From Candidatus Thiodiazotropha endoloripes (lineage in GTDB: Bacteria > Pseudomonadota > Gammaproteobacteria > Chromatiales > Chromatiaceae), in the NCBI RefSeq assembly GCF_001708965.1, contig NZ_LVJW01000003.1, positions 1,860,001 through 1,924,000 on the forward strand: a stretch of 64,000 nucleotides of DNA, given 5' to 3'. The notes under the pieces were generated by a model, which was not told where the DNA came from, ran no database searches, and saw only the letters and a program-made list of their open reading frames with translations. The position numbers were made by a program, and so were the translations under genes. This document shows, piece after piece, positions 36,974-55,110 of the stretch (its first letter is position 1; each line of letters begins with the position of its first letter).

Positions 36974-36994
36974 AGGCACAGGTTCGATCCAAAC

Positions 36995-38806: not shown

Positions 38807-38947
38807 GGATTTCCGGCTCACATCGCCATATGATTGTATTGAGGTCAAACACCTGGCAATTCCACTGTAATATTCCTGTCACTGTTGGCGTGTAACTTTT
38901 CATGATGCCACCACCCGCATATTCGCGAAAATGACAGGACTGGCTCC

Positions 38948-39520
38948 ATGGTCCCATACAAACTGCTGATACTGGCTCTGGTCTGCTCTGCACCAGCTAC
39001 CGCTGAGACCTCTTCTGAGAAGGGTTCCGATGAAATAAGGGCTGCTGCCCAGTTTCTTTCCCTCTATCGCACTGAGCTTGACTGTGAGAACGTGGGCTAT
39101 ATTCAGACCGGTGAGGCGGACGAACACTTCGCACCAATTTTTTTATCGAGTGATATCGACAGCTCAAGGTCTCTCTCCCGCAAAGAGCTGCAGAACAATC
39201 CCTACGCACCGAATCGTTCATTACTTGGCGTCTCATTTTCCAAAATGGACCGCAACGCCGATGGATCAGCCACACCGGATGAACTGCGTCAGTACCTGAA
39301 TAATTCAGTCAGCCTGATCGACAGCAATGCCGACGGTGACGTCTATCCGGTTGAATACGAACACGCACTGAAGACCGGCAGGGTACTCAAGGGCGCCGTT
39401 ACGCCCGCTCCCCCCAAGAAGAAGAAAGCCGATTTCATACCGCCATGGGTGAGGCACCTGAAGGCCATCAATCACCGCGTTGCAAAATCCCCAAAAGCAC
39501 CGACTGAGGAACAGCAATAG
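38948..39520 (+). CDS. Secreted EF-hand protein
   Basis: 190 residues with a signal peptide (1-19, ATAET). Three EF-hand loops are visible: DIDSSRSLSRKEL, DRNADGSATPDEL and DSNADGDVYPVEY; the last two are canonical DxDxDG-like calcium-binding loops. A proline/lysine-rich segment (APPKKKKADF) leads into a basic C-terminal tail. The protein likely binds calcium in the periplasm. Its partner is unknown. Confidence 0.8.
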   Translation: MVPYKLLILALVCSAPATAETSSEKGSDEIRAAAQFLSLYRTELDCENVGYIQTGEADEHFAPIFLSSDIDSSRSLSRKELQNNPYAPNRSLLGVSFSKMDRNADGSATPDELRQYLNNSVSLIDSNADGDVYPVEYEHALKTGRVLKGAVTPAPPKKKKADFIPPWVRHLKAINHRVAKSPKAPTEEQQ

Positions 39521-39972
39521 CCCCCCCTGCAGCACCCCTCTTTATCACCCTGTTTTGGTGATCCCATGCCTGCTTCCGTTGCCTACACTTGTTAAAAAAC
39601 TCACGGCTGTCCCGGTAATTTTAATCGAAAGGATGCTCACTGGCTGATTTCCATCAGTTTTTTACCAGCCGATTGAGATTTGTGATGTAAATAGAGATAT
39701 CCAGTCAGAGGATGAAGATCAGAACAAGCACCGCTCATCAGCGTGCTAAACAGATGGAGAGAGTAACTCTCCTGTTCCAACGAAGGAGAGGGGCTTTCCT
39801 GATATCGCCTTGGTTGATTTTAAGTTAACGGAACAGCAGTGAAGATATTTGAAAAAAACAAGGGCCCGAAGGCCCTTGTTATGACTGTTTCAGCTACACC
39901 AGCACACTACGCTGTGTTCGATCACTGATTCAGTTATTTTTAGCTCTTGTTCTTGATAGTCACTTAATCCTA
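39521..39972. other. Intergenic region between convergent EF-hand and DUF3604 genes
   Basis: 452 bases without a gene. It holds a small hairpin ATCACC/GGTGAT (39545-39562) after the EF-hand gene, a 6-bp hairpin GGAGAG/CTCTCC (39756-39772), and the DUF3604 terminator at 39851-39880. Confidence 0.55.
39851..39880 (-). terminator. Intrinsic terminator of the DUF3604 gene
   Basis: On the minus strand AACAAGGGCC-TTCG-GGCCCTTGTT is a perfect 10-bp stem with a UUCG tetraloop, followed by a run of T. It lies about 90 bases downstream of the DUF3604 stop codon. Confidence 0.85.
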
Positions 39973-42039
39973 CTATCTCGAAGCAAGCTTGTTCTCGTCG
40001 TCATCATCCTCATCATCATCGTCGTCATCCTTGGCGCCACCCTCGACCTCGATAAAGATCGGGTTGGTGGTGAAATTGAGGTTGGCCCAGGCTTCCAGGT
40101 CCTTGGTCAGCCTGCCCTCTACGTGAGGTGGGCAGTCAGGATCATCACAAGCGATGTTGTCGTTGAGGAAATCCGGCAGCGGGTTACCATCCATGTCACG
40201 TACATTCGGCGTACCTGCCGGGATATTGGTGCCACGGGCACGGATGTAGCTGTCTTCCTCTGCACGGAACTTGTAGGTCGCCTTGATCTTGCTCTTGTCA
40301 GCTTCGTAGGTGAAGTTCTTGGCGATGACAGTGGTTTCCGGTGCAAGGGGATTGAAGTACTCCTCATCGGCCGGTGTGAACTGCTTGCCTACAACACCTG
40401 TAATGAAGTCGACGTGACGCAGACTGGGCTTGTTGACCGGCTCATGGATGCCGACCTGCAGCAGTGACGGATTGTCAAACTTGTAGGGACTGTTGTTGGC
40501 ACCCTTTGGATCCGTGGCTACCAGTTTGACGGTGACCTTCTGACCCGCGCGGACATTCAGGGTTTCACCCATGGTGGCACAGTTATGTTTGCTGGTGCAG
40601 GCTTCGAATTTGAAACCTTTACCGCTGATCAACTGACCCTGCACGGAGAAGGAGTTACCACTACGCAGGCTGTTGATGATGTCGACCGCAGGATCGTCAC
40701 CATAGTCTTCGACGTAAGCGAAGATCTCCTGGAACTCACCGGGCCAGAAATCGTTGTCGGCTTCGAAGTCCAGTGGTCCGAAGGAACCACGTGAATGCCA
40801 GTCAGAGGAAGCGAAGTACCAGAAACGACGACCTTCGGAGAGCATCGCATCCCACATGGTGCGAACACCAGGGCGGCACAGGGTAACCTTGTTGATGTCA
40901 CCGCTGTACATGGCCAGCTCTTCAGCCGGGTAATAGGAATTGTAGAGTTCGTCGTAGTCAGCCTGGGTGATCGGTTCGCCATCAAAGTTCTCACCCGGCT
41001 TGGCTGCTTCAGCACCACCGTAACAGCCTACACCGTTGAAGGTGAAGAGACCTGCGGTCGGACGGCCGGCATGGTAGCTGCCGCGATTCGCCTGGGCCTG
41101 GTGACCCGGCTCGGATTCAAAGCCGAAAGCAACTTCAGGTGCGACGGTGTTCCAGTCACGGAAGTGTTCAACGTTGAAACCTTCATCGTCGTCTTCGATG
41201 AAAGCACCCTGACGCTCAACGTGGGCACCCACTGAGAAGCTCTCACCCGGGTAGTTTTCCGCCATCCACAAAACACCGGCGGTGGATTTTACATGCTCAC
41301 CACGATCGTCGATGTTGACACCGTCAACCAGGGTGCTGTTGTAGTCTGCAACGCCCTCTTCCGGACGACCGGCGAACAGTGCCTTGATCTTCTCGTTGGC
41401 TTCATCGGACAGCTCGCAGGTCCAGCCCTGGCCGCCACCCTGAGAGGTGTCGTCCGAGTTACGTGCGAAACAGTATTCGAACTGGGCGATAGCGTCGGAG
41501 TTCGGTACGTCCGCGTAGTTACCGGCAGAGATCGAGTTGGAGGAGTGCTCATGACCTGGAACAACCCACTCCAGACCCAGGAAGGCTTCCTTGTCTTCAT
41601 TGCCGGGCAGTTCGCGGGCAGTGACGATTGACGGAAGGTTGTACTCCTGCAGGGACTGCCAACGCCACATGCGTTCAACAGTGTCGTAACCACGGGTGGA
41701 ACTGTTGTAGTCACCCTTGATTGCAGCAGAGTCGGTACCCGGACCGTCACCAATGGTGTTGGCCCACAGACCTGGGTGGGTAGGTCCACTACGGTCGGCC
41801 TGGTAGAGGAAGTCGGATACACGACAGTCACGGGTTCCGGAACCGGAGTGACCGACGTGAATGAACCAATCCAGATAGCTCAAGGATTTTTCGGTTAACA
41901 CTTCGACGTTGGTGGAACCGTCGGAGCAGGTCGTATGGTTATGGAAGTCACCAGACAGGTACTGACCAGCGCTAGCCGAACCTGCTGTGGTGCCAGCCAA
42001 TGCCGCTGCAAGCGCTGCAGACATTACACTAGGTTTCAT
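39973..42039 (-). CDS. Secreted DUF3604 protein with metal-binding signature and acidic tail
   Basis: 688 residues. A signal peptide (about 1-24, GSASA) precedes GDFHNHTTCSDGS, a PHP-like His-x-His metal-binding start typical of DUF3604. Later conserved stretches include WVVPGHEHSS, FYFASSDWHSRGSFGP and GNSFSVQGQLISG. The C-terminus is a run of Asp/Glu (DDDDDDEDDDD) encoded by mixed GAT/GAC codons. Codon choice is strongly biased to a few preferred codons (AAC, GAA, GGT, TCC, ATC), unlike neighbours, suggesting high expression. It has its own strong terminator and a GGAG ribosome-binding site. Function is unknown; a metal-dependent hydrolase is inferred from the motif only. Confidence 0.85.
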   Translation of the reverse strand: MKPSVMSAALAAALAGTTAGSASAGQYLSGDFHNHTTCSDGSTNVEVLTEKSLSYLDWFIHVGHSGSGTRDCRVSDFLYQADRSGPTHPGLWANTIGDGPGTDSAAIKGDYNSSTRGYDTVERMWRWQSLQEYNLPSIVTARELPGNEDKEAFLGLEWVVPGHEHSSNSISAGNYADVPNSDAIAQFEYCFARNSDDTSQGGGQGWTCELSDEANEKIKALFAGRPEEGVADYNSTLVDGVNIDDRGEHVKSTAGVLWMAENYPGESFSVGAHVERQGAFIEDDDEGFNVEHFRDWNTVAPEVAFGFESEPGHQAQANRGSYHAGRPTAGLFTFNGVGCYGGAEAAKPGENFDGEPITQADYDELYNSYYPAEELAMYSGDINKVTLCRPGVRTMWDAMLSEGRRFWYFASSDWHSRGSFGPLDFEADNDFWPGEFQEIFAYVEDYGDDPAVDIINSLRSGNSFSVQGQLISGKGFKFEACTSKHNCATMGETLNVRAGQKVTVKLVATDPKGANNSPYKFDNPSLLQVGIHEPVNKPSLRHVDFITGVVGKQFTPADEEYFNPLAPETTVIAKNFTYEADKSKIKATYKFRAEEDSYIRARGTNIPAGTPNVRDMDGNPLPDFLNDNIACDDPDCPPHVEGRLTKDLEAWANLNFTTNPIFIEVEGGAKDDDDDDEDDDDENKLASR

Positions 42040-42377
42040 TATATTTCTCCAAATTAGAACAACTTGTTTGTTTAGCTAAACAACGAAAAAATCCTACCCA
42101 GGCCATTCCATTAGCGGAGTAGGTTGATAGTTAATATCTGGGAAATGAGGCTTCCTGAATTCCTAGGCGGAAGCTTGCGGATACTTAACCAGTTCTATGT
42201 AACACTGCTATTATTTCTACATGACAGATTTATCAATTTTGGATGACTTAACGAGTAAACTCTTATCTTCTTAAATAAATATGTAAGCAGGTTGACAGAG
42301 TCCGCGCTTGGAATTAATCAAAACGTAACATTGCATGTTTACATTATGCAGTCCGTCTCTCTCTCCGGTTTACATTT
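42040..42377. other. AT-rich divergent promoter region (DUF3604 / PpiC operon)
   Basis: 338 bases between two divergent transcription units, distinctly AT-rich. It must carry the DUF3604 promoter (minus strand) and that of the PpiC-HupE operon. One candidate for the latter is TTGACA at 42292-42297 with a weak TAATCA 17 bases further (42315-42320). Confidence 0.5.
42292..42320 (+). promoter_or_regulatory. Possible promoter of the ppiC-hupE operon
   Basis: Perfect -35 TTGACA (42292-42297), spacing of 17, then TAATCA as a poor -10. It is 58 bases upstream of the PpiC ATG. The weak -10 makes it tentative; an activator could be needed. Confidence 0.35.
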
Positions 42378-43307
42378 ATGCATACTTCCAACCGCTGGTT
42401 GACACTGCTGCGCGAACCCCTGCTCCAGTTCCTGATGATCGGTGCTGTGCTGTTCGCGGCGGATCACTTCCTGACCCTGCAGCGGGACGATCCACAACAG
42501 ATATTCGTCGATGCTGACCGGATAGCCTGGCTGGTGGAGGTCTTCCAACAGGGACAGGGCCGGCTTCCGGAATCCGAGGAGATCGACAATCTGATCATCA
42601 AGTGGAGCCAGAATGAGATCTTCTACCGCGAAGCCAAAGCCATGGGACTTGATCAGGGCGACGAGATGATGCGCAGCCGACTGATCCTCAAAATGCGCAA
42701 CATCCTCTTCAACCGAGTGGTGAAGGAGACACCTGGCGACGACGAGTTGCTCAAATGGTTTGAGCTCAATCGTGAAAAGTATGATGTCCCGCCCCGCTAC
42801 ACCTTCGAGCAGTTCCCTCTGACAGAGATTCAAAGTGAAGCGGAGGCCAGACGGTTCGCAGTAGATCTGGCCGACAAACCGGTACCGGAGCATTTTGCGT
42901 CGAACAAGCGCAGTTACCCACGACGCCCGGCGAGCAACATCCAGTCGCTGTTCGGTGACACGGGCCGTGACGTCCTGGTGGCTGCACCGATTGGACGCTG
43001 GTTGGCGGTTGAGTCAACCAAGGGCTGGCATCTTGCCCGGGTGACAGAACAGCACCCATCGATCCCGGCCGAATTCGATGCGGTCAAAATCCGGGTCAGC
43101 AAAGAGTTCCAGGAAGTGGCAGCGGATCTGCAACTGATGGAGATGTCCACCGAGATTGCCGAAAAATACCAGTTGCATCGTGATTTCGACGAGGCCGAGC
43201 TTGAAAAGATACTCGCCGATGCCCGGGATTTTGTACCCGCGCAGACCACCGCCGACAGCCGCACCCTGAAAGCACGCGCCGGCGCTTCGAAGGAACAGCT
43301 CAACTGA
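42378..43307 (+). CDS. Membrane-anchored PpiC-type peptidylprolyl isomerase
   Basis: 309 residues: short cytosolic N-terminus, a membrane helix (about 15-33), a SurA/PrsA-like helical chaperone region (38-130: ESEEIDNLIIKWSQNEIFYREAKAMGLDQGDE, in part), and a parvulin domain (about 135-230) ending in GWHLARVTE, the usual parvulin strand. A helical, charged tail follows. Family role: folding of exported proteins in the periplasm. It starts an operon with HupE-like proteins, so it may chaperone a dedicated exported partner, for example the divergent DUF3604 protein (inference). Confidence 0.85.
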   Translation: MHTSNRWLTLLREPLLQFLMIGAVLFAADHFLTLQRDDPQQIFVDADRIAWLVEVFQQGQGRLPESEEIDNLIIKWSQNEIFYREAKAMGLDQGDEMMRSRLILKMRNILFNRVVKETPGDDELLKWFELNREKYDVPPRYTFEQFPLTEIQSEAEARRFAVDLADKPVPEHFASNKRSYPRRPASNIQSLFGDTGRDVLVAAPIGRWLAVESTKGWHLARVTEQHPSIPAEFDAVKIRVSKEFQEVAADLQLMEMSTEIAEKYQLHRDFDEAELEKILADARDFVPAQTTADSRTLKARAGASKEQLN

Positions 43308-43314
43308 GCGTGTC

Positions 43315-44298
43315 ATGATCGGACTTCTGCGCAACTTCTCACCTGCCTGGCTGGCCATACTCTGCCTGACGCTGATCGGCACAGTGACCCTCCCCAGCGC
43401 CCTGGCCCATGAGACACCGGTGGCATCACTGGATATCCGTGAGGGTCGTAATGGTGTCCAGTGGCTTGAGTGGACCTACTACTCCGCCCGCTCCGACAAA
43501 CCTCCCACAGTGCAATGGCCCGACCACTGCACGGAAGACTATCCGCAACTGGAGTGTGGCGAAGCTGGGCTGGTGGGTCTGGTGACCATGCCACAGATCG
43601 GCGACCAGTACTCGGCTGCTGTGGTCAAGGTCAAACCGCGTGAGGGCAGGATGCACACCTACACCCTGACCGGTGCCAACCGCAGCCTGATGCTCACCGT
43701 CGATGGCAAGCTGCCCTGGCACTCCATCGCCGCCTCCTACATTCCGTTGGGTATCGAGCACATCATGCTGGGCATCGATCATCTGCTGTTCGTGCTCGGT
43801 CTGATCGTGCTGGTCAGCACCACCCCAATGCTGATCAAGACCATTACCTCGTTCACCGTCGCCCACAGCATCACCCTGGCTGCCGCCACCCTCGGTTGGG
43901 TCGGCGTTCCGGAAGGACCGGTCAATGCGGCCATCGCACTGAGTATCGTGGTACTCGCAGTGGAGGTGCTGCGCCATCGGGAAGGCAAGCCCAGCCTGAG
44001 TGCCAAGCTGCCCTGGCTGATCGCTTTCGGTTTCGGTCTGCTGCACGGCTTCGGTTTCGCGGGAGCGATGAACAACGTCGGTCTCGACCCGGAGAGTCTG
44101 CCGATCGCCCTGCTGTTCTTCAACATCGGTGTGGAGATCGGTCAGCTGGCGTTCGTGTTTCTGATCCTTGGGCTCAATCACGCACACCGCCGGCTGGAAG
44201 CGATACCACCAGTCTGGAGTGCAACCACAGCCATTTATGCCGTCGGCGGAATCGCGAGCTACTGGTTTCTGGTGCGCACTGCAGCGTTGGCAATATGA
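43315..44298 (+). CDS. HupE/UreJ-family protein, large form with periplasmic domain
   Basis: 327 residues. A signal-like N-terminal helix (LAILCLTLIGTVTLPSALAH) leads to an extracytoplasmic domain of about 100 residues, then six or so helices with HupE/UreJ_2 signatures: GIEHIMLGIDHLLFVLGL, FTVAHSITLAAATLG and LLHGFGFAGAM. The His residues in these motifs are candidate metal ligands; HupE is a nickel permease in rhizobia. Starts 8 bases after the isomerase gene. Confidence 0.85.
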   Translation: MIGLLRNFSPAWLAILCLTLIGTVTLPSALAHETPVASLDIREGRNGVQWLEWTYYSARSDKPPTVQWPDHCTEDYPQLECGEAGLVGLVTMPQIGDQYSAAVVKVKPREGRMHTYTLTGANRSLMLTVDGKLPWHSIAASYIPLGIEHIMLGIDHLLFVLGLIVLVSTTPMLIKTITSFTVAHSITLAAATLGWVGVPEGPVNAAIALSIVVLAVEVLRHREGKPSLSAKLPWLIAFGFGLLHGFGFAGAMNNVGLDPESLPIALLFFNIGVEIGQLAFVFLILGLNHAHRRLEAIPPVWSATTAIYAVGGIASYWFLVRTAALAI

Positions 44299-44315
44299 CT
44301 ATTTCGGAGAATTTC

Positions 44316-44927
44316 ATGCTCGAATCAACATCCCGCCCGATAGCCAGACTGATGATCCTGCTTGTGTTGTCCAGCTGGTCTGCTGTATCCATGGCACATG
44401 CCGAAGTGGGGGTTGCCGGGGGTCTGCTCAGTGGCCTGATGCACCCGATCTACGGACCCGACCACCTGCTGGCGATGGTTGCCGTCGGTCTCTGGGGCGC
44501 ACAACTGGGTACGCCGGCGATCTACCTGCTACCCATCACCTTTCCGGTTGTCATGGCGTTGGGCGGTCTGCTGGGTGTCGCCGGAATGCCGCTGCCTTTC
44601 ATCGAAGTGGGCATCGCGCTATCGGCCCTGGCACTGGGAGCCATGGTGGCAGCGAATCTGCGGCCACCGCTGTGGATCGCGGCCGCCCTGGTCGGCCTGT
44701 TCGCCATATTTCACGGCCACGCCCACGGCACTGAGATGCCTGACGCGGCCAACCCCCTGGCCTATGGCATCGGCTTTATCATTTCCACCGGCCTGCTCCA
44801 CCTGACCGGTATCCTGATCGGTCTTATGATCCGCTGGCCGATCGGTGCCCTGGCGATCCGCGTCTGCGGCGCCGTCATTTCCGGTTTCGGCCTCTTCTTC
44901 ATGGCCTCGAGCACCGGCCTGGCCTGA
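44316..44927 (+). CDS. HupE/UreJ-type metal permease
   Basis: 203 residues, HupE/UreJ family with a signal-like N-terminus ending SMAHAE, MHPIYGPDHLLAMVAVGLW (canonical HPxxGxDHxLAM-type motif) and AIFHGHAHGTEMP in helix 4-5. Known family members transport nickel or cobalt. The ATG at 44316 is preferred over 44295 because of a GGAGA ribosome-binding site. It overlaps the next gene by one base (TGATG). Confidence 0.85.
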   Translation: MLESTSRPIARLMILLVLSSWSAVSMAHAEVGVAGGLLSGLMHPIYGPDHLLAMVAVGLWGAQLGTPAIYLLPITFPVVMALGGLLGVAGMPLPFIEVGIALSALALGAMVAANLRPPLWIAAALVGLFAIFHGHAHGTEMPDAANPLAYGIGFIISTGLLHLTGILIGLMIRWPIGALAIRVCGAVISGFGLFFMASSTGLA

Positions 44928-45547
44928 TGAGCAGAATCAACACCCTGCTGAGATCGGGGCTCCCGCTGCTGGTGTTGCTCGTCCCGGAGTCAGCTCATGC
45001 CCACCTGGTGTCAACCCGTTTCGGGGAGTTCTACAGCGGGCTGCTGCATCCGCTGACCACACTGGTACACCTGGTGCCCTGGCTGGCCCTTGCCATGTTC
45101 GCCTCGATGCAGGGCAAGGCTTTTGCGCGCCGATCCCTGCCGCTCTTCCCCCTGGCTGTCGCTTTCGGGGTGCTGCTCGGTATCAGCTTCGGTGGTTTGC
45201 AGAGCTTGCTGATACCGAACATTCTCTCCTTCGTGGTACTGGGTGGACTGGTGGCACTCTCCTACCCGCTCCCCCGGGCTGTGGGACTCACCGCGGTGGT
45301 GCTGTTCGCCATCAGTCACGGCTATGCGAATGGCGATGTGGATCTGGCCGACGGCAGTCTCACACTCTATGTGGCGGGGGTAACCACCGCAGCCTATCTG
45401 GTTGTGGCGCTGGGTGCCGGAGCGGCCGTTGCCATCAGTGAGCGGGCCGCCTGGGGGCAGATCGCTCTGCGGGCGCTCGGCAGCTGGATTCTGGCCGCCG
45501 GTCTGATCTACGGGGGATTCGAACTGATGGGCGTCAGCGGTGCCTGA
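44927..45547 (+). CDS. HupE/UreJ-like membrane protein (third in tandem)
   Basis: 206 residues with a cleavable signal-like N-terminus (VLLVPESAHAH), about five to six helices and conserved His in HAHLVSTRFGEFYSGLLHPLTTLVH (region 23-48, in part) and AISHGYANGDVDLADG. It is a divergent member: the HPxxGxDH motif is reduced to LLHPLTTLVHLVPW. The stop overlaps the next start by 8 bases. It is probably part of the same transport unit as the preceding gene. Confidence 0.75.
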   Translation: MSRINTLLRSGLPLLVLLVPESAHAHLVSTRFGEFYSGLLHPLTTLVHLVPWLALAMFASMQGKAFARRSLPLFPLAVAFGVLLGISFGGLQSLLIPNILSFVVLGGLVALSYPLPRAVGLTAVVLFAISHGYANGDVDLADGSLTLYVAGVTTAAYLVVALGAGAAVAISERAAWGQIALRALGSWILAAGLIYGGFELMGVSGA

Positions 45548-48209
45548 TTCCTCGACAGACTCCGCCGCGGTACTGAAATCCGCCGGCATCGCAAGCGGGA
45601 CACTGGCATTCGGTTCAACTGCCATCCCCCTGCTCTATCTGCTGGTACTGCTCTCCGGCTTTGCCGGTCTGGGCTATCAGATCGCCTGGACCCGTATGCT
45701 GTCGGTCTCCCTTGGCCACGAATTCACCGCAGTACTGGCGGTGGTAACGGCCTTTTTCATCGGCCTCTCCCTGGGCGGGCTGATCTTCAACCGGGTGCTT
45801 CGGCAGACCCGCTACCCGCTGCGCTGGTATGTAGCACTGGAGATCACCATCGGCCTCTGGGCGCTGTGTCTGATGCTGTTACTGCCCCACTACAACCCGT
45901 GGAGCGCCCACCTGATTGGCAGCGAGCCCCATCCACTGTGGCACTGGAGCGTCGCTTTCGGCGCCAGTCTGCTGGTGCTGCTGCCGGCGACCCTGGCCAT
46001 GGGCGCGACCCTGCCCGCCGCCCATCGGGTTTCAGTATCCCTGTCGGTCGTGAACCGCGGTATTGCCGGGCTCTATGCTGCGAACACCGGTGGTGCCCTG
46101 TTCGGCACACTGATCGCCACCTACTGGCTGTTGCCGGCGCTTGGCCTCAACCATACACTCCTACTTTTTGCTTCGATCAACCTGGCAATCGCGGCCCTGC
46201 TCTGGCTGCGTATGCCAAAGAGGCAGGTCCAGCCGATCTCATGGCCTGATGCGGCAACCCCAGGCCGGCGGCTGCTGCTGGTGCTGTTCCTCACCGGACT
46301 GCTGGGACTGGGCTATGAGATCCTCGTGGTGCGGGTACTCGCCCAGGTCCTGGAAGGCACCGTCTACAGCTATGCCGCGGTGCTCGCAGTCTACCTGCTG
46401 GGTACCACCCTGGGCGCAGCCCTATACCACCGGTACAGCCGGAGATCAGGGGATGCAGGCGAGCGCTGGTCGGCTACCGGCCAACGGCTGCTCGTGGCCG
46501 TCTCGTTCCTCTGTCTGACGGGAACCTTGTTGCTGTGGGCCACCGAGTCGATCTACCAAGCTGTTTTCGGCCAACTCGGCCCCGGCAACCTGGCCGCCAT
46601 GCTTGCGGAACTGAGTGTCGCGACGGTGGTGTTCCTGCTACCGACCCTGGCCATGGGGGGGCTGTTCAGCCACCTGGCGCAGCAGGCCACCGGGCCTTAC
46701 GGCCTCGGCGCCGCTCTCGGTGTCAACACCCTGGGTGCCGCACTCGCGCCACTGCTGTTCGGTGTCATACTGCTGCCGTTACTGGGCGCCCTGGAGACCC
46801 TGGTTTTGTTGGCTGTCGGCTACATGATACTGCCCTGGCTGCTGGGTTCAGATCTGACCTATTGGCGCTACAAACTGCCACTGGTCGTCTGTGCTTGCGC
46901 CCTGCTGCTGATACCGGGACCGCTCAGATTCGTCTCCGCACCCTCGGGCAGTGAGATGCTGGCCTACGATGAGGGGGTTATCGCGGCGGTCGCAGTGATC
47001 GAGGAACCGGACCAAAGCCGTCATTTGAAGGTCAACAACCGCTTCACCATGGGTGGTACCGCCAGCCGCTTCTCCGATCACCGGCAGACCCACCTGCCCC
47101 TGTTGTGGCATGGCGGCGCAGCTCGCAGCGCCCTCTATCTCGGCCTGGGTACGGGTATCACCTTCCAGGCGGCCCAATACTACCCTGAGCTGCAGGCCAC
47201 CGGGGTCGAGTTGATCCCGGAGATGCTGACGTTGATGCCACGGTTCGGTGTCGATGTGACGGGGCCCCATTGGCGGAACCCGCCCCGGGTCATCGCGGCG
47301 GACGCGCGACGCTTTGTGGTTGCCGAAGAGACACAGTACGACGTGATCGTCGCCGAGGTCTTCCACCCTTCCCGCGACGGCGCCGGTTCCCTCTACACGG
47401 TTGAGCATTTCAGTGCGATCCGCCAACGACTGGCCACCGATGGCCTGTTCTGCCAGTGGCTACCCCTGTTCCAGCTCGATCTGGATACCCTGCGCCTGAT
47501 CACCCGCAGCTACCTTGAGGTGTTTCCCAATGCTCAGTTGCACCTGGCCCACTACAGTCTGCGTCAACCCCTGCTCTGCCTGCTCGGCGGTGAAGGCCTG
47601 AACGCCTTCAGTGATGACTGGCTGGAGCAGCGTATCCATGACCGGGGCCTGCAGCGGCAGCTGATCGCCAACCGGCTGAACTCCGACTTTACGCTGTTTG
47701 GCGGTTACCTGGCCGGCCCGGAGGCACTGCGGCGATTCACCGCTGATGTACCGTTGAATACCGATGACCACCCCAGGGTGACCTTTCAGGCCCCCGGTTT
47801 TGTCTATGGTGATCCCAAATCCGCTGCGCAGCGCCTGCTCGAGCTGGTGCAATTGACCGCCCCCCATCGCGGCACCCTGCTCGACAATCGATCCAACAAG
47901 GGGGATTTTGGCCGGCGTCTGCAGGATTACTGGCTTGCCAGGGATGCATTCCTGGCTGCCGGGGTCGGTGTGGCCCCATCAACAGACATTCGAAAAATAC
48001 TGGCGCAGACGCAGCACAAGCTACTGGATGTGGTGCGCCTCTCCAGCGACTTTCTGCCTGCCTATGATCCGCTGCTGAAGATGGCAACCGCAGTCCACCG
48101 GGTGGATCCGCAAAGCGCCCATAAGCTGCTGTTGGAGCTGGAGCAGGCCAACCCAAAACTACCGGAAGCCCGCCGTCTGCGCCGGCGGTTATTTGGAGGA
48201 GACCCATGA
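45540..48209 (+). CDS. 12-TM / spermidine-synthase fusion protein
   Basis: 889 residues from a GTG at 45540. Residues 25-460 form about twelve membrane helices of the fused-MFS type (GFAGLGYQIAWTRMLSVSLGHE is the family's first-helix signature, in part); 470-730 is a spermidine-synthase-like Rossmann domain with LYLGLGTGITFQAAQYYPEL (SAM loop) and AEVFHPSRDGAGS in place of the catalytic DSTDP; a tail of about 160 residues follows. Real aminopropyltransferase activity is therefore uncertain. The whole operon section is markedly G+C-rich: 47 of 60 bases in 45961-46020. It overlaps the oxygenase gene by 4 bases. Confidence 0.85.
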   Translation: MPDSSTDSAAVLKSAGIASGTLAFGSTAIPLLYLLVLLSGFAGLGYQIAWTRMLSVSLGHEFTAVLAVVTAFFIGLSLGGLIFNRVLRQTRYPLRWYVALEITIGLWALCLMLLLPHYNPWSAHLIGSEPHPLWHWSVAFGASLLVLLPATLAMGATLPAAHRVSVSLSVVNRGIAGLYAANTGGALFGTLIATYWLLPALGLNHTLLLFASINLAIAALLWLRMPKRQVQPISWPDAATPGRRLLLVLFLTGLLGLGYEILVVRVLAQVLEGTVYSYAAVLAVYLLGTTLGAALYHRYSRRSGDAGERWSATGQRLLVAVSFLCLTGTLLLWATESIYQAVFGQLGPGNLAAMLAELSVATVVFLLPTLAMGGLFSHLAQQATGPYGLGAALGVNTLGAALAPLLFGVILLPLLGALETLVLLAVGYMILPWLLGSDLTYWRYKLPLVVCACALLLIPGPLRFVSAPSGSEMLAYDEGVIAAVAVIEEPDQSRHLKVNNRFTMGGTASRFSDHRQTHLPLLWHGGAARSALYLGLGTGITFQAAQYYPELQATGVELIPEMLTLMPRFGVDVTGPHWRNPPRVIAADARRFVVAEETQYDVIVAEVFHPSRDGAGSLYTVEHFSAIRQRLATDGLFCQWLPLFQLDLDTLRLITRSYLEVFPNAQLHLAHYSLRQPLLCLLGGEGLNAFSDDWLEQRIHDRGLQRQLIANRLNSDFTLFGGYLAGPEALRRFTADVPLNTDDHPRVTFQAPGFVYGDPKSAAQRLLELVQLTAPHRGTLLDNRSNKGDFGRRLQDYWLARDAFLAAGVGVAPSTDIRKILAQTQHKLLDVVRLSSDFLPAYDPLLKMATAVHRVDPQSAHKLLLELEQANPKLPEARRLRRRLFGGDP

Positions 48210-48817
48210 GTTCTTTGGACTTGAGCGACAACATTCTGCCGGTGTTCGTCACACCGGTTGTCAACTATCTGTGGCCTAACAGCGACGACCTCAATGCCGA
48301 GTTACGGGACTACATCCTGGAATGTGAAAAATCGGAAAAGGGGCTGAACAAAAGCGTTGTGGGTGGCTGGCACTCGGAACTGGACATGCTTGCCCGGGAT
48401 GCTGCACCCATCGCCCAACTGCGTGAGCGGTTGTGGCTTTTCACCCAGGCGCTGCTCAAGCAGTTTTCCCAACCGGGTGAAAACTTCAACTTCCGTATCG
48501 AGGGCTGGGGTAATGTGCTGCGCCATGGTCAGTACCATTCGATGCACGCACACCCCAACGCAACCTGGTCTGGATGCTACTACGTCAATGGCAATGATGA
48601 TGTGGAGGATCAACCCTTCAGCGGCCGCTTCGAGTTGATCGATCCGCGCCCCGCTGCCAGTCTCAACTATGCTGAATCATCCAATCTCTATGGCCGCTTT
48701 CTGCTCAATCCCAATCCGGGGCAGATGATCGTCTTCCCCTCCTGGATGCAGCATCAGGTGCACCCCTACTTCGGAGAGGGTGAACGCATCACGGTGGCAT
48801 TCAACGTACTGTTGTGA
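48206..48817 (+). CDS. TIGR02466-type 2OG-Fe(II) oxygenase-like protein
   Basis: 203 residues of a double-stranded beta-helix protein. HSMHAHPNATWSGCYYVNG (about 112-130) and SWMQHQVHPYFGEGERITVAFN (180-201, in part) are the two iron/2OG-binding regions; the first has H-x-H where classic members have H-x-D/E. A GGAGGAGA ribosome-binding site and ATGA overlap couple it to the fusion gene. The stop and the convergent neighbour's stop share TGATCA (48815-48820). Substrate unknown. Confidence 0.8.
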   Translation: MSSLDLSDNILPVFVTPVVNYLWPNSDDLNAELRDYILECEKSEKGLNKSVVGGWHSELDMLARDAAPIAQLRERLWLFTQALLKQFSQPGENFNFRIEGWGNVLRHGQYHSMHAHPNATWSGCYYVNGNDDVEDQPFSGRFELIDPRPAASLNYAESSNLYGRFLLNPNPGQMIVFPSWMQHQVHPYFGEGERITVAFNVLL

Positions 48818-49594
48818 TCAGCGCAGACCTTCAACGCCTTCCTGACCCGGGCGAATCATGAACATGGTGACACTGGCCCGCACATGATCCCCCGCCGCAG
48901 GTTTGACCGTGGAGATCATGTGAGGATTCCCGGTTTTCATCACCGCGATCCGGTTGGGCTTAGGCATGACGTAATAGCCCATACCGGCCTCCATCAGGGC
49001 ATCATTGACCTCCTGGTTGTCCAGGTGTCCGGAGAGCTGCACCATACCCCGGCCCATCACCTCCTTGGGTTCAATCATCGAGGGACCACAACGGTCCGGA
49101 ATCGACAATGCTGAAGGGTGGGCGATAAACAGCTCACCACCCCATTGCACATTCCACTCCGGATGGGCGTAGTAAGTGCATGTGCCGGTCACCACCGATG
49201 GGGTGTCCCGATGCCAGTAGAGAGCGCTGTTCCGTTCATACAGACGGGGCGCCATGGCGATGGTACGCCAATCCTTGCCTTCACGGCCGAGCAATTTGTG
49301 GTGAATGTCCGAGGCACCACTGAAGCGTTCCACCAACAGATCCAGCGCGGTACCGGTGGGATGGGCAAAAGCCCCCTCGTTCGCTGACGCAACCTGCTTT
49401 GCCACTGAACCATAGTAGACATCCGGTCCGCGGAACACACGACCGTCATCAAGCCGCCAGGCCCCATGCAGACCCCGCATATCGTTTGGAAAGAACGGTG
49501 CAACCTGGAACCAGCGCCACATCTGTTCAAAATCTTTTGCCGGAAGAAAGTCGTCGACCACCAGAACCTGTTCGGTTTCAAACACCACTTTCAT
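48818..49594 (-). CDS. 2OG-Fe(II) oxygenase-like protein
   Basis: 258 residues. An HxD motif is in YWHRDTPSVVTGTCTYYAHPEW (about 127-148, in part), followed by WGGELFIAHP and a C-terminal half with HMISTVKPAAGDHVRASVTMFMI that contains a third His and a conserved Arg. This fits the prolyl-hydroxylase-like 2OG-Fe(II) superfamily, although it is not close in sequence to the two TIGR02466-type neighbours. Convergent with the preceding gene with no gap. Confidence 0.75.
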   Translation of the reverse strand: MKVVFETEQVLVVDDFLPAKDFEQMWRWFQVAPFFPNDMRGLHGAWRLDDGRVFRGPDVYYGSVAKQVASANEGAFAHPTGTALDLLVERFSGASDIHHKLLGREGKDWRTIAMAPRLYERNSALYWHRDTPSVVTGTCTYYAHPEWNVQWGGELFIAHPSALSIPDRCGPSMIEPKEVMGRGMVQLSGHLDNQEVNDALMEAGMGYYVMPKPNRIAVMKTGNPHMISTVKPAAGDHVRASVTMFMIRPGQEGVEGLR

Positions 49595-49625
49595 GCTATG
49601 TTCCGTTGTTGCGGTAGATTAAAAC

Positions 49626-50258
49626 TCAGTTAGCGAACTGCACTTCATAGTCCCAGCTTTTCAGACGTTCGGGAAGCGCGTTCATGGCGATACTGATGCG
49701 GGTCTGATCACCCTGATTGGGGGGTACTGCGTGCAGCAGGTGACTCGGAAAGAAAACCATGTCACCGCGATTCACTTCGTCCGGGATCCAGCGCTCCGCA
49801 TTGTAAGGCGTGGTAGTGCTGTTCTCATGACTGTTGGAGAACACAAAATTGGTGCCACCCATGGGCTTGTGAAAGATGATCCGTGCCGAGGGATGGACAT
49901 CAGTCAGGTAGATCACCGCGGTAATCAGGCTGTTGGCGTGGGTATGTATCAGCTGGGCTCCGCCGGTTACCGAGACGTTCATCCACAACTCCTTAATGGT
50001 CCAACGCAGGTTTTCACCAAACAGTAAAAAACCGAAGTCACGGAAATAGTCCTGCAGCCGTTCATTCAAATCACCGAGTTGGTCGATATCGTTGCTGCCC
50101 AGGGGTTCGGTATGAGTGAGCAGATCGGTCTTGGCATTGGCGATCTTTGGAGACGAGTCGATAACATCCTGAAGTGCATCCAGTTCGGAGTCATTAAATA
50201 CCTTTTCCACCCGCATCACAGGGATTGGAAACAGGCCTTCGATGTGCATGTTACTCAT
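49626..50258 (-). CDS. TIGR02466-type 2OG-Fe(II) oxygenase-like protein
   Basis: 210 residues from ATG 50258 (MSNMHIEGLFPIPVMRVE); ATG 50249 and a GTG at 50282 are alternatives. The metal region LIHTHANSLITAVIYLTD again shows H-x-H followed by N-S, as in the gene at 48206, and FFPSHLLHAVPPNQGDQTRISIAMN (in part) supplies the distal His and the 2OG-binding Arg. It precedes the 48818 gene by 31 bases on the same strand, so the two probably form a unit. Confidence 0.78.
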   Translation of the reverse strand: MSNMHIEGLFPIPVMRVEKVFNDSELDALQDVIDSSPKIANAKTDLLTHTEPLGSNDIDQLGDLNERLQDYFRDFGFLLFGENLRWTIKELWMNVSVTGGAQLIHTHANSLITAVIYLTDVHPSARIIFHKPMGGTNFVFSNSHENSTTTPYNAERWIPDEVNRGDMVFFPSHLLHAVPPNQGDQTRISIAMNALPERLKSWDYEVQFAN

Positions 50259-50485
50259 AGACTTGATATCCACTTTTACCACTAAAACAACTTGCTGGCG
50301 TTCGAAACCGGGAAACGTTTCCGTATCAAAAACGGTCAGGTATTAGCCGCAAGTCGCCTGAGTATATTCGATCCGGATCGTTGGGTTGTGAACCTTTTAT
50401 GACATGACGGCTTGGATAATGATCAGCCACCATGATTCGATGTTAAACCCTTCTCGATCAACAGCAGGATCTTGCAGCACCTGTC

Positions 50486-51238
50486 TCAGGCTGTCCCATA
50501 GGCTTTCGTCTTCAGTTTATAGAGACGGTCGAAGTTCTTAAGCGATATCAGGTGTGCATGTATCCGCGCCAGAGAACCGTTCTCCTGCAAGGCCTTGAGC
50601 TTATCGGCAGGCAGCTCATTGAGCTTTGCTTCACTGATACGCAGCATGCCTGGTTTGCCGGTATACTCCTTACCGTCAAGGGAGACCTTGTAATTGAACT
50701 GCTCCAGCAACTCCAGGTCCTGTAATATCTGCATGAAACTCTCGGTTTGCTGCAGTTCGCCATCAAGGTCGGCAACGAAGTTCTCCAAATCCTGCCAATA
50801 AGGGGTGGGATTGCCGTCGCTATCAAAAAAATGATTGCTTTCATCGGACAACGCAGTCTCATCCACGAACAGCGCCAACCGGCGCTGATCCTCTTCCTGT
50901 TCCGGATAGGGAAAGGTATAGAATGGGTAGCGGCGTATCGTCGCGGGTATGTAGCACTCCTCATGCCAGCTGCCGTCACTGTTGACGTAGAGGTTTTCAC
51001 CGTCGTTCACCCCGGTCAGGATCACCGGCATCAGATTCTCAGCCCGGCCTGCAGCGATGAATATCAGTGGATAGTCCCGGGATGCGTTGATCATCTCCAT
51101 CCAGGTCACCATGATCACATGTTGAGAGGCTGAAAAGCTGTAGTCATCCGGCCGCGCGATTCCCAACTGGCCATGGATATTCTTGTCCAGGGAAACCAGG
51201 GTTTTATAGCCCAGTGGCAGTTGCCGTTCGTCAAGCAT
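50486..51238 (-). CDS. SapC-family protein
   Basis: 250 residues matching SapC proteins (the family first named from an S-layer-associated locus): the N-terminal PLGYKTLVSLDKNIHGQLGI and a middle IRRYPFYTF block are typical. No signal peptide. SapC genes commonly occur near TonB-dependent receptors, 2OG/cupin-type oxygenases and tryptophan halogenases, as with the oxygenases and receptor here, but its biochemical function is unknown. Confidence 0.85.
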   Translation of the reverse strand: MLDERQLPLGYKTLVSLDKNIHGQLGIARPDDYSFSASQHVIMVTWMEMINASRDYPLIFIAAGRAENLMPVILTGVNDGENLYVNSDGSWHEECYIPATIRRYPFYTFPYPEQEEDQRRLALFVDETALSDESNHFFDSDGNPTPYWQDLENFVADLDGELQQTESFMQILQDLELLEQFNYKVSLDGKEYTGKPGMLRISEAKLNELPADKLKALQENGSLARIHAHLISLKNFDRLYKLKTKAYGTA

Positions 51239-51529
51239 AAGTGATCCTGCATGTTAAGTGTGCGTACGATAGATAGGTAGAATTTTAACGAGGATTCGAT
51301 GAAAATTTGATGACAGCTGGTCAGCCTGTGATGGTAATGCCGGATGACCTGACTCGAGATTGTAATCTCTGTGCAATTTAAACTTCATGCCGCCTGGCAG
51401 TAACTATGCGAAATCAATGTGTTTGAAAGTAGTTCAAACGGATTGCCAAGCCTCTATGATTGATTTTCAGTTAGCAAGCGACTGCAGTACTGGGAAGCTG
51501 TCGCTGAGATTATTGCCTCTGCACCACTC
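51239..51529. other. Intergenic region between SapC and M56 peptidase genes
   Basis: 291 bases with no gene, terminator or repeat recognised; moderately AT-rich. Confidence 0.4.
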
Positions 51530-52498
51530 TCATCGCGACAGCCACTCCAGCAATGGGTGACCATAATGTACGGCCATGACAATGAATACCAACCACACAC
51601 TGGCAACAGCGTAGCCGGGAAACAAGCTCTCTTTCTGCGTAGTCGTACCGTCGGTTTGCCGTTCCAGCTCATGCTCAAGCGCAATGATGCGCTTTATTAT
51701 GTGGTCCTGACGAGCTGAGTTGTTGTGTTTACTGCTACTGGCGCAACAACTGTCCAACAAACGGATCAGATCAACTAAATCGGTTTTGCCCTGATGGACA
51801 TAGGCTGCTGCCAGATCACTGATTTGTTCAGTGTAGTCAAAGAACTCCTGTCTGATCCGTTGTCTACGGGATTGGGGCCAGGCGATAGTCGCCCAGTGCA
51901 AACACCATTTGCTCAGATTGTCCCGGCGCAGGGCATGCGCCAGTTCATGAGTCAATATGATCTGCAACTGTCGGGCTGACAGGCTATTGACGAGTCCGCT
52001 CGACAGGAAAACCTGCGGCCGAAACAGGCCTGCACACCAGGCGATAGCCGCCGGATTATCCACCAGACGATAATACTTGGAAGTCGATTCTGACAAATCG
52101 CTCAAGGTTTGTAATCGACGCCTTCCCGATAGGGATTGCATGACCATCAGTGTACCCACAGACACCAGTGTTATGACGATTAAGGTAACGGTGACCATTC
52201 CGTTGAACGTCTCTGTGGTCATCTGCAAGGTGTGTGGTGTGCACAAAGCACCATGGCAATGGTCGGTGACCAAGGAAAACGCCAGCGTCGGCATATAGAG
52301 AATCATCAGGGTCAAGGTTGCCGCGACCGGCGCCATCAGACCGTAAGCAAGGGTCAACCAGGCCCCATGGGTTACTTTCATCCTGGCGAAAAAAGATGAG
52401 AAAAATGAGTAGGCTCCGGCCAGCATCCAGGACAGCACCAGGAACATGACTGTCCAGGCAAATAGGATATTGGCAATGGTTGTCACTGTATTAATCAT
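51530..52498 (-). CDS. M56-family (BlaR1-type) membrane metallopeptidase
   Basis: 322 residues from ATG 52498. Three N-terminal membrane helices (about 5-30, 38-62, 85-108), a zinc-protease HEXXH motif (HELAHALRRDN, about residues 183-193) in the cytosolic loop, and a C-terminal helix (about 294-315). It lacks the penicillin-binding sensor domain of BlaR1. The ATG overlaps the blaI-like stop by 8 bases (ATGATTAA). Such proteases cleave their BlaI-type repressor to induce the operon. Confidence 0.85.
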   Translation of the reverse strand: MINTVTTIANILFAWTVMFLVLSWMLAGAYSFFSSFFARMKVTHGAWLTLAYGLMAPVAATLTLMILYMPTLAFSLVTDHCHGALCTPHTLQMTTETFNGMVTVTLIVITLVSVGTLMVMQSLSGRRRLQTLSDLSESTSKYYRLVDNPAAIAWCAGLFRPQVFLSSGLVNSLSARQLQIILTHELAHALRRDNLSKWCLHWATIAWPQSRRQRIRQEFFDYTEQISDLAAAYVHQGKTDLVDLIRLLDSCCASSSKHNNSARQDHIIKRIIALEHELERQTDGTTTQKESLFPGYAVASVWLVFIVMAVHYGHPLLEWLSR

Positions 52499-52931
52499 CG
52501 GACTCCTTCGGCAACCGACCGATGATCTCACGCACCTCCTCGGTTAGAGACTCGGGCAATTCATAGTCGATGTAGTTCACGAATCCGGAGACCATAGGCG
52601 CCATTTCACCATCGCCGATGGTCTCGGCAATATCCATCATCAACTGACTGATGAAGACACTGCGGCTTACCGCGGCACGGTAGATATATCGGCGTCCCGA
52701 TTTTTGCCGATGCAGTAAAGATTTTCTGTGCAACCGCTCCAGAGTGCTTTGCATGGTACTCAGGCTCAATGTGCTGTCAGAAATACTCTGCAGCACGTGC
52801 TGTGCTGAGAGTGCGCCTTCCCGCCACACTATTTTCATGACCTCCAGTTCCCGTCCTCCCAGCACAGGACTGGGTTGTCTTTTACGACAACCGTCAAGAA
52901 AACGACTTAATTCTGTCGTCATTTTATTCAC
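52491..52931 (-). CDS. BlaI/MecI/CopY-family transcriptional repressor
   Basis: 146 residues (or 143 from the ATG at 52922). The winged helix is at about 22-92 (LGGRELEVMKIVWREGALSAQHVLQSIS, TMQSTLERLHRKSLLHRQKSG), and a C-terminal dimerisation region follows. It is divergent from the TonB-dependent receptor, whose start is 110 bases away, so that receptor is the likely target. Regulated in known systems by proteolysis through the paired M56 protease. Confidence 0.88.
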   Translation of the reverse strand: MNKMTTELSRFLDGCRKRQPSPVLGGRELEVMKIVWREGALSAQHVLQSISDSTLSLSTMQSTLERLHRKSLLHRQKSGRRYIYRAAVSRSVFISQLMMDIAETIGDGEMAPMVSGFVNYIDYELPESLTEEVREIIGRLPKESDD

Positions 52932-53040
52932 AAAAACCTATCTCTTATCGGTTTTCAATTTGTGGTGGATACTGCAGCCAACACTGCTGACTGACAAGTT
53001 GTCTTCAGCCTCAAAGGAAACGCAAACTGGAGCGCAGGAT
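52932..53040. promoter_or_regulatory. Divergent control region blaI-like / TonB receptor
   Basis: 109 bases between the repressor and the receptor genes. A perfect inverted repeat GACAA-G-TTGTC (52993-53003) is a candidate operator. It does not contain the TACA/TGTA half-sites of classical BlaI, so the assignment is tentative. Confidence 0.4.
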
Positions 53041-55110
53041 ATGACATTTCGATGGTTGAGTCTATTGGTACTTATCAGTACTCAGACGGTCGCTGAGGAT
53101 GCCTCAAACGAACCTGTCGTGATCGAATCCCTTGTCGTGGAGGGCCGTCAGACGAATCTGCTGGGTGAGGCTGTTTCTGCATCCGAGGGCATCGTGGGGC
53201 AGACGGAAATTGAACTTCGACCTCTGCTGCGTACCGGTGAAGTATTGGAACTGGTGCCGGGCATGGTGGTAACCCAACATAGCGGCACCGGTAAAGCCAA
53301 TCAGTATTTCCTTCGGGGCTTCAACCTCGATCACGGCACCGACTTCTCCACTCATGTCGACGGCATGCCAGTCAACATGCGCACACATGGTCATGGACAG
53401 GGTTACACCGATCTTAATTTTCTGATCCCGGAAACCGTTGGCCAGCTCACTTACAAGAAAGGCGCCTACTATGCGGATGTGGGCGACTTCAGTGGCGCCG
53501 GCAGTGCGCAATTCGAGACAGCAAAACGCTTGGAACAGGGTAGTGCCGAACTCAGCGTAGGTGAAGATGACTACTATCGAGTGTTGCTGATGAACAGTTT
53601 TGCTTTTGCGGGTGGTACATCGCTCTTTGCCTTTGAAGGTAATCGCTATGATGGCCCCTGGTCGGATATCGAGGAAGATCTCGACAAAACCAATCTACTC
53701 TTGAAACATACTCATTCACTGGATGATGGAGAACTCAGTATATCGATAATGACCTACAACAACAGTTGGAACAGTGCCGATCAGATCCCTTCACGTGCAG
53801 TGGATCAAGCTCTGATCGATGACCTGGGATCCCTCGATAACACAGTCGGTGGCGAATCGGAACGTTACAGCCTCAGTCTCGATTGGCGTTCCGCTGGCTT
53901 GCATGGCTCTGCCTATATCATCGATTACGACTTAAACCTGTGGTCAAACTTTACCTACTTTATGGATGATGAGATTGATGGCGATCAATTCGAACAGGTC
54001 GACCGTCGATTGATCTATGGTGGTCAACTCAGTTATCTCTCAAATGATAAGTTGGCTGGCCATCATATGCAGAACCGTGTCGGGATAGAGTTGCGCATCG
54101 ATGATATTGATGAAGTTGCCCTCTACCATACAAAAAAGCGGGATCGACTGGGCACTATCCGCAGCGATGAAGTCACCGAAACGAGTATTGGTGTTTTTTG
54201 GGAGAACCGTGTCACTTGGAATTATCGTCTGCACAGTGTGTTGGGACTGCGTTACGACTATTATGACTTTGATGTGAATGATAGATCGGGCATCAATGAA
54301 AATGGTGTGGATCTGAGTGTCAACAGCGGCACGGCCAATGACAGCCTGCCTTCCCTGAAAGGCAGCCTGATCTATACCCTAAACGATGCATGGGAAGGTT
54401 ATGTTTCTGCCGGACAGAGTTTCCATTCCAATGATGCCCGTGGCGTCACCAGCCGTGTCGATCCCGCAGACGGCAATTCGGTAGACGCTGTCGATCCACT
54501 GGTGAGGTCGTTTGGATATGAAACGGGTATACGGGGATTCATCAGCGATCGGATAAATACCTCACTGGCGTTATGGGCCCTGGAAGTGGACAGTGAGCTG
54601 TTGTTTGTTGGCGATGCCGGCAACACAGAAGAGAGTCGCGGCTCAAAACGGAAAGGCGTGGAATTGACCACCTATTACCGCCTCACGGATCAGTGGAGCC
54701 TTGATTTGGAATACGCCTACACCGATGCGGAATTTACCGATGATGCTCCGGAAGGTAATGAGATTCCGGGGGCCCTGGAACATGTCGTCCAGGCAGGAGT
54801 GGCAGCCAACTTAGACAGCGGCTGGTTCGGTAGTGTGCGTTTGCGCTATTTCGGTGAACGGCCCTTGAACGAAGACGGTTCAGTCGAATCCGATGCCAGT
54901 ACCATCTGGAATCTGCGTGTCGGTTACCGTAAAAAAGAGTGGACGTTTAAAGCCGATATTCTGAATCTGACCGATAGTGATGATCACGATATTGACTACT
55001 ATTACGCTTCACGTTTGGAGACAGAACCGACCGGTATTGCTACTGAGGATATTCACTATCATGTGATAGAACCCCGCACCTATCGCGTATCACTGACCTA
55101 TCAATTTTAG
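53041..55110 (+). CDS. TonB-dependent receptor
   Basis: Outer-membrane transporter of 689 residues from ATG 53041, with signal peptide (1-19, AED). The plug domain has VLELVPGMVVTQHSGTGKANQYFLRG (in part) and GTDFSTHVDGMPVNMRTHGHGQGYTDLNFLIPE; a 22-strand barrel follows, ending in a terminal Phe (SLTYQF) as expected for BamA recognition. The substrate is not readable from sequence, but metal chelates or the product of the neighbouring oxygenases are candidates. A longer frame begins in the repressor gene and is rejected. Confidence 0.92.
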   Translation: MTFRWLSLLVLISTQTVAEDASNEPVVIESLVVEGRQTNLLGEAVSASEGIVGQTEIELRPLLRTGEVLELVPGMVVTQHSGTGKANQYFLRGFNLDHGTDFSTHVDGMPVNMRTHGHGQGYTDLNFLIPETVGQLTYKKGAYYADVGDFSGAGSAQFETAKRLEQGSAELSVGEDDYYRVLLMNSFAFAGGTSLFAFEGNRYDGPWSDIEEDLDKTNLLLKHTHSLDDGELSISIMTYNNSWNSADQIPSRAVDQALIDDLGSLDNTVGGESERYSLSLDWRSAGLHGSAYIIDYDLNLWSNFTYFMDDEIDGDQFEQVDRRLIYGGQLSYLSNDKLAGHHMQNRVGIELRIDDIDEVALYHTKKRDRLGTIRSDEVTETSIGVFWENRVTWNYRLHSVLGLRYDYYDFDVNDRSGINENGVDLSVNSGTANDSLPSLKGSLIYTLNDAWEGYVSAGQSFHSNDARGVTSRVDPADGNSVDAVDPLVRSFGYETGIRGFISDRINTSLALWALEVDSELLFVGDAGNTEESRGSKRKGVELTTYYRLTDQWSLDLEYAYTDAEFTDDAPEGNEIPGALEHVVQAGVAANLDSGWFGSVRLRYFGERPLNEDGSVESDASTIWNLRVGYRKKEWTFKADILNLTDSDDHDIDYYYASRLETEPTGIATEDIHYHVIEPRTYRVSLTYQF

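Follow-up and report, generated by a model that had tools for sequence, protein, structure and literature searches.

A horizontally acquired island with a recurring gene core and a probable role in nickel acquisition in Candidatus Thiodiazotropha endoloripes

The genome of Candidatus Thiodiazotropha endoloripes (assembly GCF_001708965.1) contains a genomic island, located in the 64,000 nucleotides analyzed here (contig NZ_LVJW01000003.1, positions 1,860,001 to 1,924,000 of the forward strand; hereafter the window, from whose first letter all positions are counted), which is a horizontally acquired insertion. Five of its genes, encoding a secreted PHP-type protein, a PpiC-type foldase, the permease HupE1, a fused major facilitator (MFS)/spermidine-synthase (SpdSyn) protein (the fusion) and the 2-oxoglutarate (2OG)-Fe(II) oxygenase OxyC, form a core that was encountered again, in other gene orders, in two further lineages. 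The island probably serves the acquisition of nickel (or nickel and cobalt). This reading is based on the insertion, the recurring core, the location of one of the copies next to nikR and a gene for a related TonB-dependent receptor, and the frequent nearness of that receptor family to nikR.

The boundaries of the island were derived by comparing a 19,901-base stretch (36,100-56,000) with 22 genomes (those of the host and of 21 congeners). The closest congeners match it up to 38,082-38,091, at the end of hypD, and again from 55,680, before a gene for a C92 peptidase. In 16 out of 21 congeners one contig holds both flanks with less than 400 bp between them, and the flanks were contiguous in all six of these that were fetched and compared; both flanks fall at contig ends in G008, and the right flank has no match in G006 and G017. 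Two congeners (G016 and G012) have ∼2.5 kb between the flanks, holding a different TonB receptor gene (L187 and L188), so that the hypD/C92-peptidase site looks like an insertion hotspot; the receptor of G016, the one compared, is barely similar to that of the island (27 bits). The G+C content is 54% in the island, 62% in its part at 42,378-48,209 and 52% in the rest of the window, and at third codon positions (GC3) it reaches 0.700-0.765 in the genes from PpiC to the fusion, the range in 14 genes of the window that lie beyond the island being 0.535-0.634. The original prediction, which described an operon at 42378-50258, had suggested transfer from a G+C-rich segment at 45961-46020. The reported count (47/60) is exact and is the sole such value on a grid of non-overlapping 60-mers, and the transfer itself is now backed by the empty site in congeners and by the raised GC3. 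The proposed boundaries proved too narrow, because the divergent gene at 39973-42039 and the receptor gene at 53041-55110 both have counterparts alongside the core in other genomes.

The original prediction made its case depend on conservation of the neighborhood beyond this strain, and the core indeed recurs on a Comamonadaceae plasmid and on a contig of a Nevskiaceae metagenome-assembled genome (MAG). All five core genes are present on plasmid CP099604.1 of Comamonadaceae bacterium OTU4NAUVB1 (locus L197), where the order is nikR, TonB receptor, a lipoprotein-like gene, PHP-type protein, fusion, PpiC, HupE, 2OG oxygenase and the copper chaperone PCuAC, all on one strand except for one small gene. 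The identities to the window proteins are 34% (PHP-type), 41% (fusion), 34% (PpiC), 39% (HupE1) and 44.5% (OxyC), and the two receptors share 43.1% over 673 amino acids. At E 1e-15 OxyC matches only one of 72,556 plasmid records, namely this one, which is also the top plasmid record for the PHP-type protein and for the fusion. The Nevskiaceae contig (L106, 5.9 kb) carries four out of five core genes (PpiC, PHP-type, OxyC-type and a fusion gene covering the first 533 residues); it ends at PpiC on one side, and the fusion is cut by a contig end. By blastp its proteins are 34% (PpiC), 33% (PHP-type), 44% (OxyC) and 43% (fusion) identical to those of the window, L106 and L197 being closer to each other (44-53%). 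A HupE1 gene is located on a separate contig of the same MAG (L200), with neighbors that are undecisive as to a continuation of the cluster.

A chance accumulation of separately acquired genes without joint function would fit the variation of gene G+C along the island (46% to 64%), as well as the failure to see SapC, the BlaI/M56 pair, OxyA, OxyB and HupE2/3 in the L197 stretch (the L106 contig being too short to tell). We regard it as very improbable, as the core genes are found together in three lineages in three different orders, and the fusion tree, which includes L106 (533 residues) and L107 as partial rows and does not contain L197, pairs the window with L106 (99/93) within a clade of seven rows (100/100).

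Table 1. Features of the island (window positions; open reading frames were called mechanically, and starts may lie too early)
Feature	Position	Strand	Support or remark
Genomic island, 17,597 bp	38083..55679	.	between hypD and C92-peptidase gene
Secreted PHP-type metallohydrolase-like protein, 688 aa	39973..42039	-	NF038032 38 bits, below cut-off 80
PpiC-type membrane-anchored peptidyl-prolyl isomerase	42378..43307	+	PF13145 38 bits
HupE1, exported N-terminal domain followed by HupE_UreJ_2 permease	43315..44298	+	PF13795 160 bits
HupE2 permease	44316..44927	+	PF04955 195 bits; start picked from GGAG
HupE3 permease	44927..45547	+	PF04955 83 bits; 1-base overlap with HupE2
Fusion, MFS-fold membrane domain and spermidine-synthase fold	45540..48209	+	NF037959 77.3 bits, cut-off 40
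OxyA, TIGR02466 2OG-Fe(II) oxygenase	48206..48817	+	85.9 bits, cut-off 62.5
OxyB, distant 2OG-Fe(II) oxygenase, H-R-D at 128-130	48818..49594	-	PF13640 (2OG-FeII_Oxy_3) 23.7 bits, below cut-off 27
OxyC, TIGR02466 oxygenase, conserved core member	49626..50282	-	64.7 bits, cut-off 62.5
SapC-family protein	50486..51238	-	PF07277 203 bits
M56 peptidase and BlaI-type repressor, candidate regulator	51530..52931	-	PF05569 and PF01435, PF03965
Palindrome AAAACCTAT-ctctt-ATCGGTTTT, candidate operator between repressor and receptor genes	52933..52955	.	
TonB-dependent receptor, family often encoded near nikR	53041..55110	+	PF00593/PF07715

The gene calls and family assignments of the original prediction agree with the profile matches (Table 1), and so does the tight spacing on one strand from PpiC to OxyA, with 7 bp between PpiC and HupE1, 17 bp between HupE1 and HupE2 (assuming the HupE2 start at 44316 behind GGAG) and overlaps thereafter; OxyB and OxyC face this run. 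The predicted metal link of the gene set is likewise supported.

The case for nickel comes from the receptor, since its family is often encoded near nikR. The island receptor is 39-43% identical, over most of its length, to receptors near nikR. Among nine receptor loci read (L197 included, out of 15 listed from 49 matching plasmid records), nikR is nearby at five, namely L197, Afipia pHCG3, Methylomagnum, Paraburkholderia and Polymorphobacter. On pHCG3 nikR comes after a hyp cluster, and in Paraburkholderia hoxN is located between the receptor gene and nikR. At the other loci there is a HoxN-type nickel/cobalt permease (1/9, Cupriavidus pHG1), cobalamin genes (1/9) or neither (2/9). A site with one mismatch to what we take to be the NikR consensus precedes three of the 10 receptor genes tested, a match reached in 0 of 200 shuffles of each (these shuffles, like those for the HupE triple, keep base content only). 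Within the genus, G007 has a HupE pair near nikR and a DUF4198 gene with a perfect NikR-type site, while in G012 HupE, nikR and a perfect NikR-type site occur on one contig. The original prediction had offered nickel supply for a hydrogenase 6 kb away as one possible role. The nickel part of that suggestion thus gains backing from the receptor family; the distance lends none, because the island was inserted at this place, and the hypB-hypD stretch is matched in 21 out of 21 congeners. The distance itself needs correction, as the end of hypD is ∼4.3 kb from PpiC and directly borders the insertion.

The island differs from the nikR-linked receptor loci in having a BlaI/M56 pair beside the receptor gene, a pair that may take the place of the NikR not found in this host. 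The pattern of the palindrome between the repressor and receptor genes occurs nowhere else in the window, albeit 23 of 100 shuffles also had at least one match to it. TTACAT/ATGTAA half-sites cluster near 42,197-42,375, but the words they share with the BlaI-receptor gap are short and unconvincing, and this candidate was dropped.

All three HupE proteins score over the curated HupE/UreJ profile cut-off, and at E 0.001 the PF04955, PF13795 and PF13759 matches of the host genome all fall inside the cluster. Their assignment to the HupE/UreJ permeases predicts transport of nickel or cobalt. The HupE of Rhizobium leguminosarum is said to be a nickel transporter for hydrogenase. Nickel transport by members of the HupE/UreJ family has been demonstrated, according to the accessible part of PMC2667541. 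What sets the island apart from the known permeases of this group (PF04955 and PF13795) is that its three members adjoin the fusion, a PHP-type protein and oxygenases. As read by eye, HupE1 has a histidine directly after the likely signal-peptide cleavage (ALA|HETP), and among 17 cassette relatives inspected likewise this residue is His in 12, Asp in four and unclear in one. An exported N-terminal domain starting with histidine and followed by a PF13795 permease is also the arrangement of the Ang-1 "anglerase"-HupE/UreJ-2 proteins, for which metal capture has been proposed (PMC12537917, 2025, as far as the text of that paper was accessible); phmmer, however, finds no sequence match of HupE1 to a solved chain (the Ang-1 domain has an Ig-like fold in PDB 9GCE).

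HupE1 adjoins PpiC in 17 out of 20 loci fetched from the host's class, a count drawn from 20 of 21 PpiC places outside the host (for L154 and L155 the PpiC position is that of the search which gave these places); in L152 a small open reading frame lies between the two genes. Pfam detects DUF3604 in 11 of the 20 loci, chosen candidates having been scanned. Seven alphaproteobacterial plasmid loci were also read, with PpiC-HupE in 7/7, DUF3604 listed in 5/7 and a CorA magnesium/cobalt gene at the edge of one. The Rhizobium sp. N324 plasmid has the order DUF3604-PpiC-HupE-HupE-HupE, its second HupE being 54% identical to HupE2 of the window and its third 32% to HupE3. The three consecutive HupE genes, presented originally as a novel feature, are therefore not unique to the island, and HupE1 beside PpiC is common. 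In L156 the order DUF3604-PpiC-HupE1 is followed, ∼3 kb on, by a gene for a receptor 43.8% identical to that of the window, with no NikR-type site before it. L139 has, in place of DUF3604, a sulfatase gene (PF00884, L139:6312-8084) beside PpiC-HupE1. We found no open-licence paper pairing HupE with DUF3604, and neither "DUF3604" nor "PpiC" occurs in the main text of the Ang-1 paper (PMC12537917).

In the island the place of DUF3604 is occupied by the secreted 688-residue protein, which nonetheless gives no PF12228 match up to E 1; nor did hhalign join its profile to those of seven DUF3604 proteins at a significant level. Its sole profile support is the below-cut-off match to NF038032. Using the PHP motif as we take it to be, we read by eye D31, H33, H35, H64, E157, H163, H165, H273, D413 and H415 as candidate metal ligands, all of which are kept in L106 (44% identity over the protein in a MAFFT alignment). 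A two-row profile of the family matches, at E 1e-20, only the host among 369 genomes of its class. A scan of viral contigs confirmed no PHP-type relative, which says little about origin, and the predicted structure (mean pLDDT 30) was not used.

Such a gene content could be taken to mean that the island is not primarily concerned with metal uptake and instead encodes a module for modification of the envelope or of small molecules, with the HupE proteins merely supplying cofactor metal to the PHP-type hydrolase or to other enzymes. In its favor, the core combines hydrolase-like, foldase and oxygenase proteins with a fusion that resembles an exporter, and DUF3604-PpiC-HupE is found without other evident metal genes. 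On the other hand, 2OG oxygenases use iron, not a known HupE cargo, and the links to the receptor and nikR would be left unexplained, making this interpretation distinctly unlikely in our view.

The fusion consists of an MFS fold in its first half, with VMAT, NorA and SotB among the close structural matches, and a SpdSyn fold in the second half, as seen in the predicted structure (Foldseek, VIA matches; AlphaFold2 model with mean pLDDT 72 and 13 long helices in residues 25-456). The MFS fold leaves room for the export of a small molecule put forward in the original prediction. It shares both folds with the fused MFS/spermidine synthases of NF037959 and scores over that cut-off; the island copy is distinguished by its location with HupE and oxygenase genes. 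As originally noted, the DSTDP motif, which we take to be the catalytic motif of polyamine aminopropyltransferases, is gone: E-V-F-H-P is found instead, with E606 and H609 aligned with the Asp pair. Standard aminopropyltransferase activity is not borne out, this active-site pair being absent; the scores for five polyamine aminopropyltransferase equivalog models are 17-71 bits against cut-offs of 249-537. Relatives at E <=1e-40 are present in 40 of the 369 class genomes (host included), and identity exceeds 40% in just one other than the host (G282); a scan of named genomes gave 15 loci, and the 21 congeners yielded weak partial matches only (best E 2e-15). No tested function for the NF037959 family was met in the databases and open-licence literature covered.

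The relatives of the fusion bring in zinc. Using the Zur consensus as we assume it to be (a fixed consensus for all counts, with four operon-head positions chosen by the analyst), we find a Zur-type box with 0-3 mismatches at four out of five sister-clade fusion starts (L038, L039, L041, L056) and at the operon head in 4/4 Methylococcaceae-type loci (L102, L103, L104, L107), which are close relatives of each other. No box is present in any of the 22 other fused-SpdSyn loci, nor directly at the fusion start in the window's own clade (0/7). Neighbors in the scanned sister-fusion loci encode ZrgA, ZnuA or a ZnuD-like receptor. These palindromes suggest that, in several gammaproteobacteria, the fused MFS/spermidine synthase belongs to the zinc-starvation genes; no report of this kind, pairing spermidine synthase with zinc, was found in the accessible portions of the open-licence literature. 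In a Phycisphaerales MAG (L105:9083-9724) a gene for a PEP-CTERM protein that weakly resembles the zinc family all3515 (ZepA), with a score below cut-off, stands just before the fusion.

The island fusion, unlike its sister clades, is not under such a box. No Zur box was found in the island, L105 or L106, the best sites in four island regions differing at 4-6 of the 13 fixed bases (p 0.17-1), and Zur control of the island was accordingly rejected. In the host, Zur-type boxes stand at zrgA-like, COG0523-like and znuA-zur-like genes (genes read by eye; of the host sites, some with 0-1 mismatch were taken up), even though sites with <=2 mismatches are not enriched overall (24 and 27 as against 29 and 51 for the reversed control).

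Several further observations weigh against nickel. The nearest relatives of the fusion outside the window, L106 and L197 are mostly in zinc loci, and the plasmid copy ends in a copper chaperone gene. The measured Ang-1 domain prefers copper over nickel (PMC12537917, in the part accessible). The seven alphaproteobacterial plasmid loci list no nickel gene, their gene tables being incomplete. NikR-type sites are missing before seven of the 10 receptors tested. The host genome gives no NikR match, whereas 17 out of 21 congeners have one, and no NikR-like site was detected in the four island regions (a single two-mismatch site at 44293 is about what chance predicts); NikR control of the island in this host was thus rejected.

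Taken with the Zur-boxed relatives and their ZrgA, ZnuD-like and ZnuA neighbors, the copper chaperone and the copper-binding Ang-1 domain would fit an island for zinc (or zinc and copper) acquisition, in which the fusion keeps an ancestral zinc role, the HupE proteins carry zinc or copper, and a regulator other than Zur is in charge. We consider this rather unlikely, since the island, L105 and L106 lack a Zur box in spite of the host boxes, and the receptor family is often found near nikR.

Of the oxygenases, OxyA and OxyC also match the phage-borne family phrog_81, while OxyB has no TIGR02466 match (the 2OG motifs being those we presume for the fold); the oxygenase of L197 scores 56.3 bits, under the TIGR02466 cut-off. 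The H-x-H metal motif that the original prediction had singled out in two of the oxygenases is there, but both solved TIGR02466-like proteins carry it too; it thus seems characteristic of the family and was rejected as a special motif.

If the island does serve nickel acquisition, the TonB receptor would pass a nickel complex through the outer membrane, the periplasmic PHP-type hydrolase and the PpiC foldase could free or mature components, and the exported N-terminal histidine domain of HupE1 would hand the ion to the HupE permeases. For the fusion and the oxygenases we infer roles in which the former exports, and may modify with S-adenosylmethionine (SAM), a small compound that OxyC (here perhaps also OxyA and OxyB) would hydroxylate. 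The nickel could be destined for the [NiFe] hydrogenase, the hyp genes of which adjoin the island. An extended version, which we hold to be unlikely, makes the core an undescribed nickel-scavenging pathway that produces its own chelator. Here the SpdSyn-like domain would modify an acceptor, with SAM or decarboxylated SAM as the group donor, TIGR02466 enzymes would hydroxylate the product, the MFS domain would export it and the receptor would recover it, whereupon the PHP-type hydrolase would break down the nickel complex and HupE1 would import the ion.

Among other features of the island, 38243-39520 holds two more genes; the product of one looks exported and matches nothing in Pfam, and that of the other has EF-hand matches. 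The segments 39602-39843 and 55297-55500 have many partial copies elsewhere in the host genome and in congeners, the first resembling a dispersed non-coding repeat. An RNA switch was rejected, as Rfam gives no match at the gathering threshold in 26,000-56,000.

The analysis links fused MFS/spermidine-synthase proteins, TIGR02466 oxygenases and the PpiC-next-to-HupE arrangement to transition-metal acquisition by a small mobile gene set. To judge from the Zur-type boxes at sister fusions and the nikR gene by the plasmid copy, a single protein family may be used for different metals under different regulators. Should a chelator be made, the fused family would share small-molecule metal scavenging with its Zur-boxed relatives, and the pathway would represent a new kind of metallophore route.

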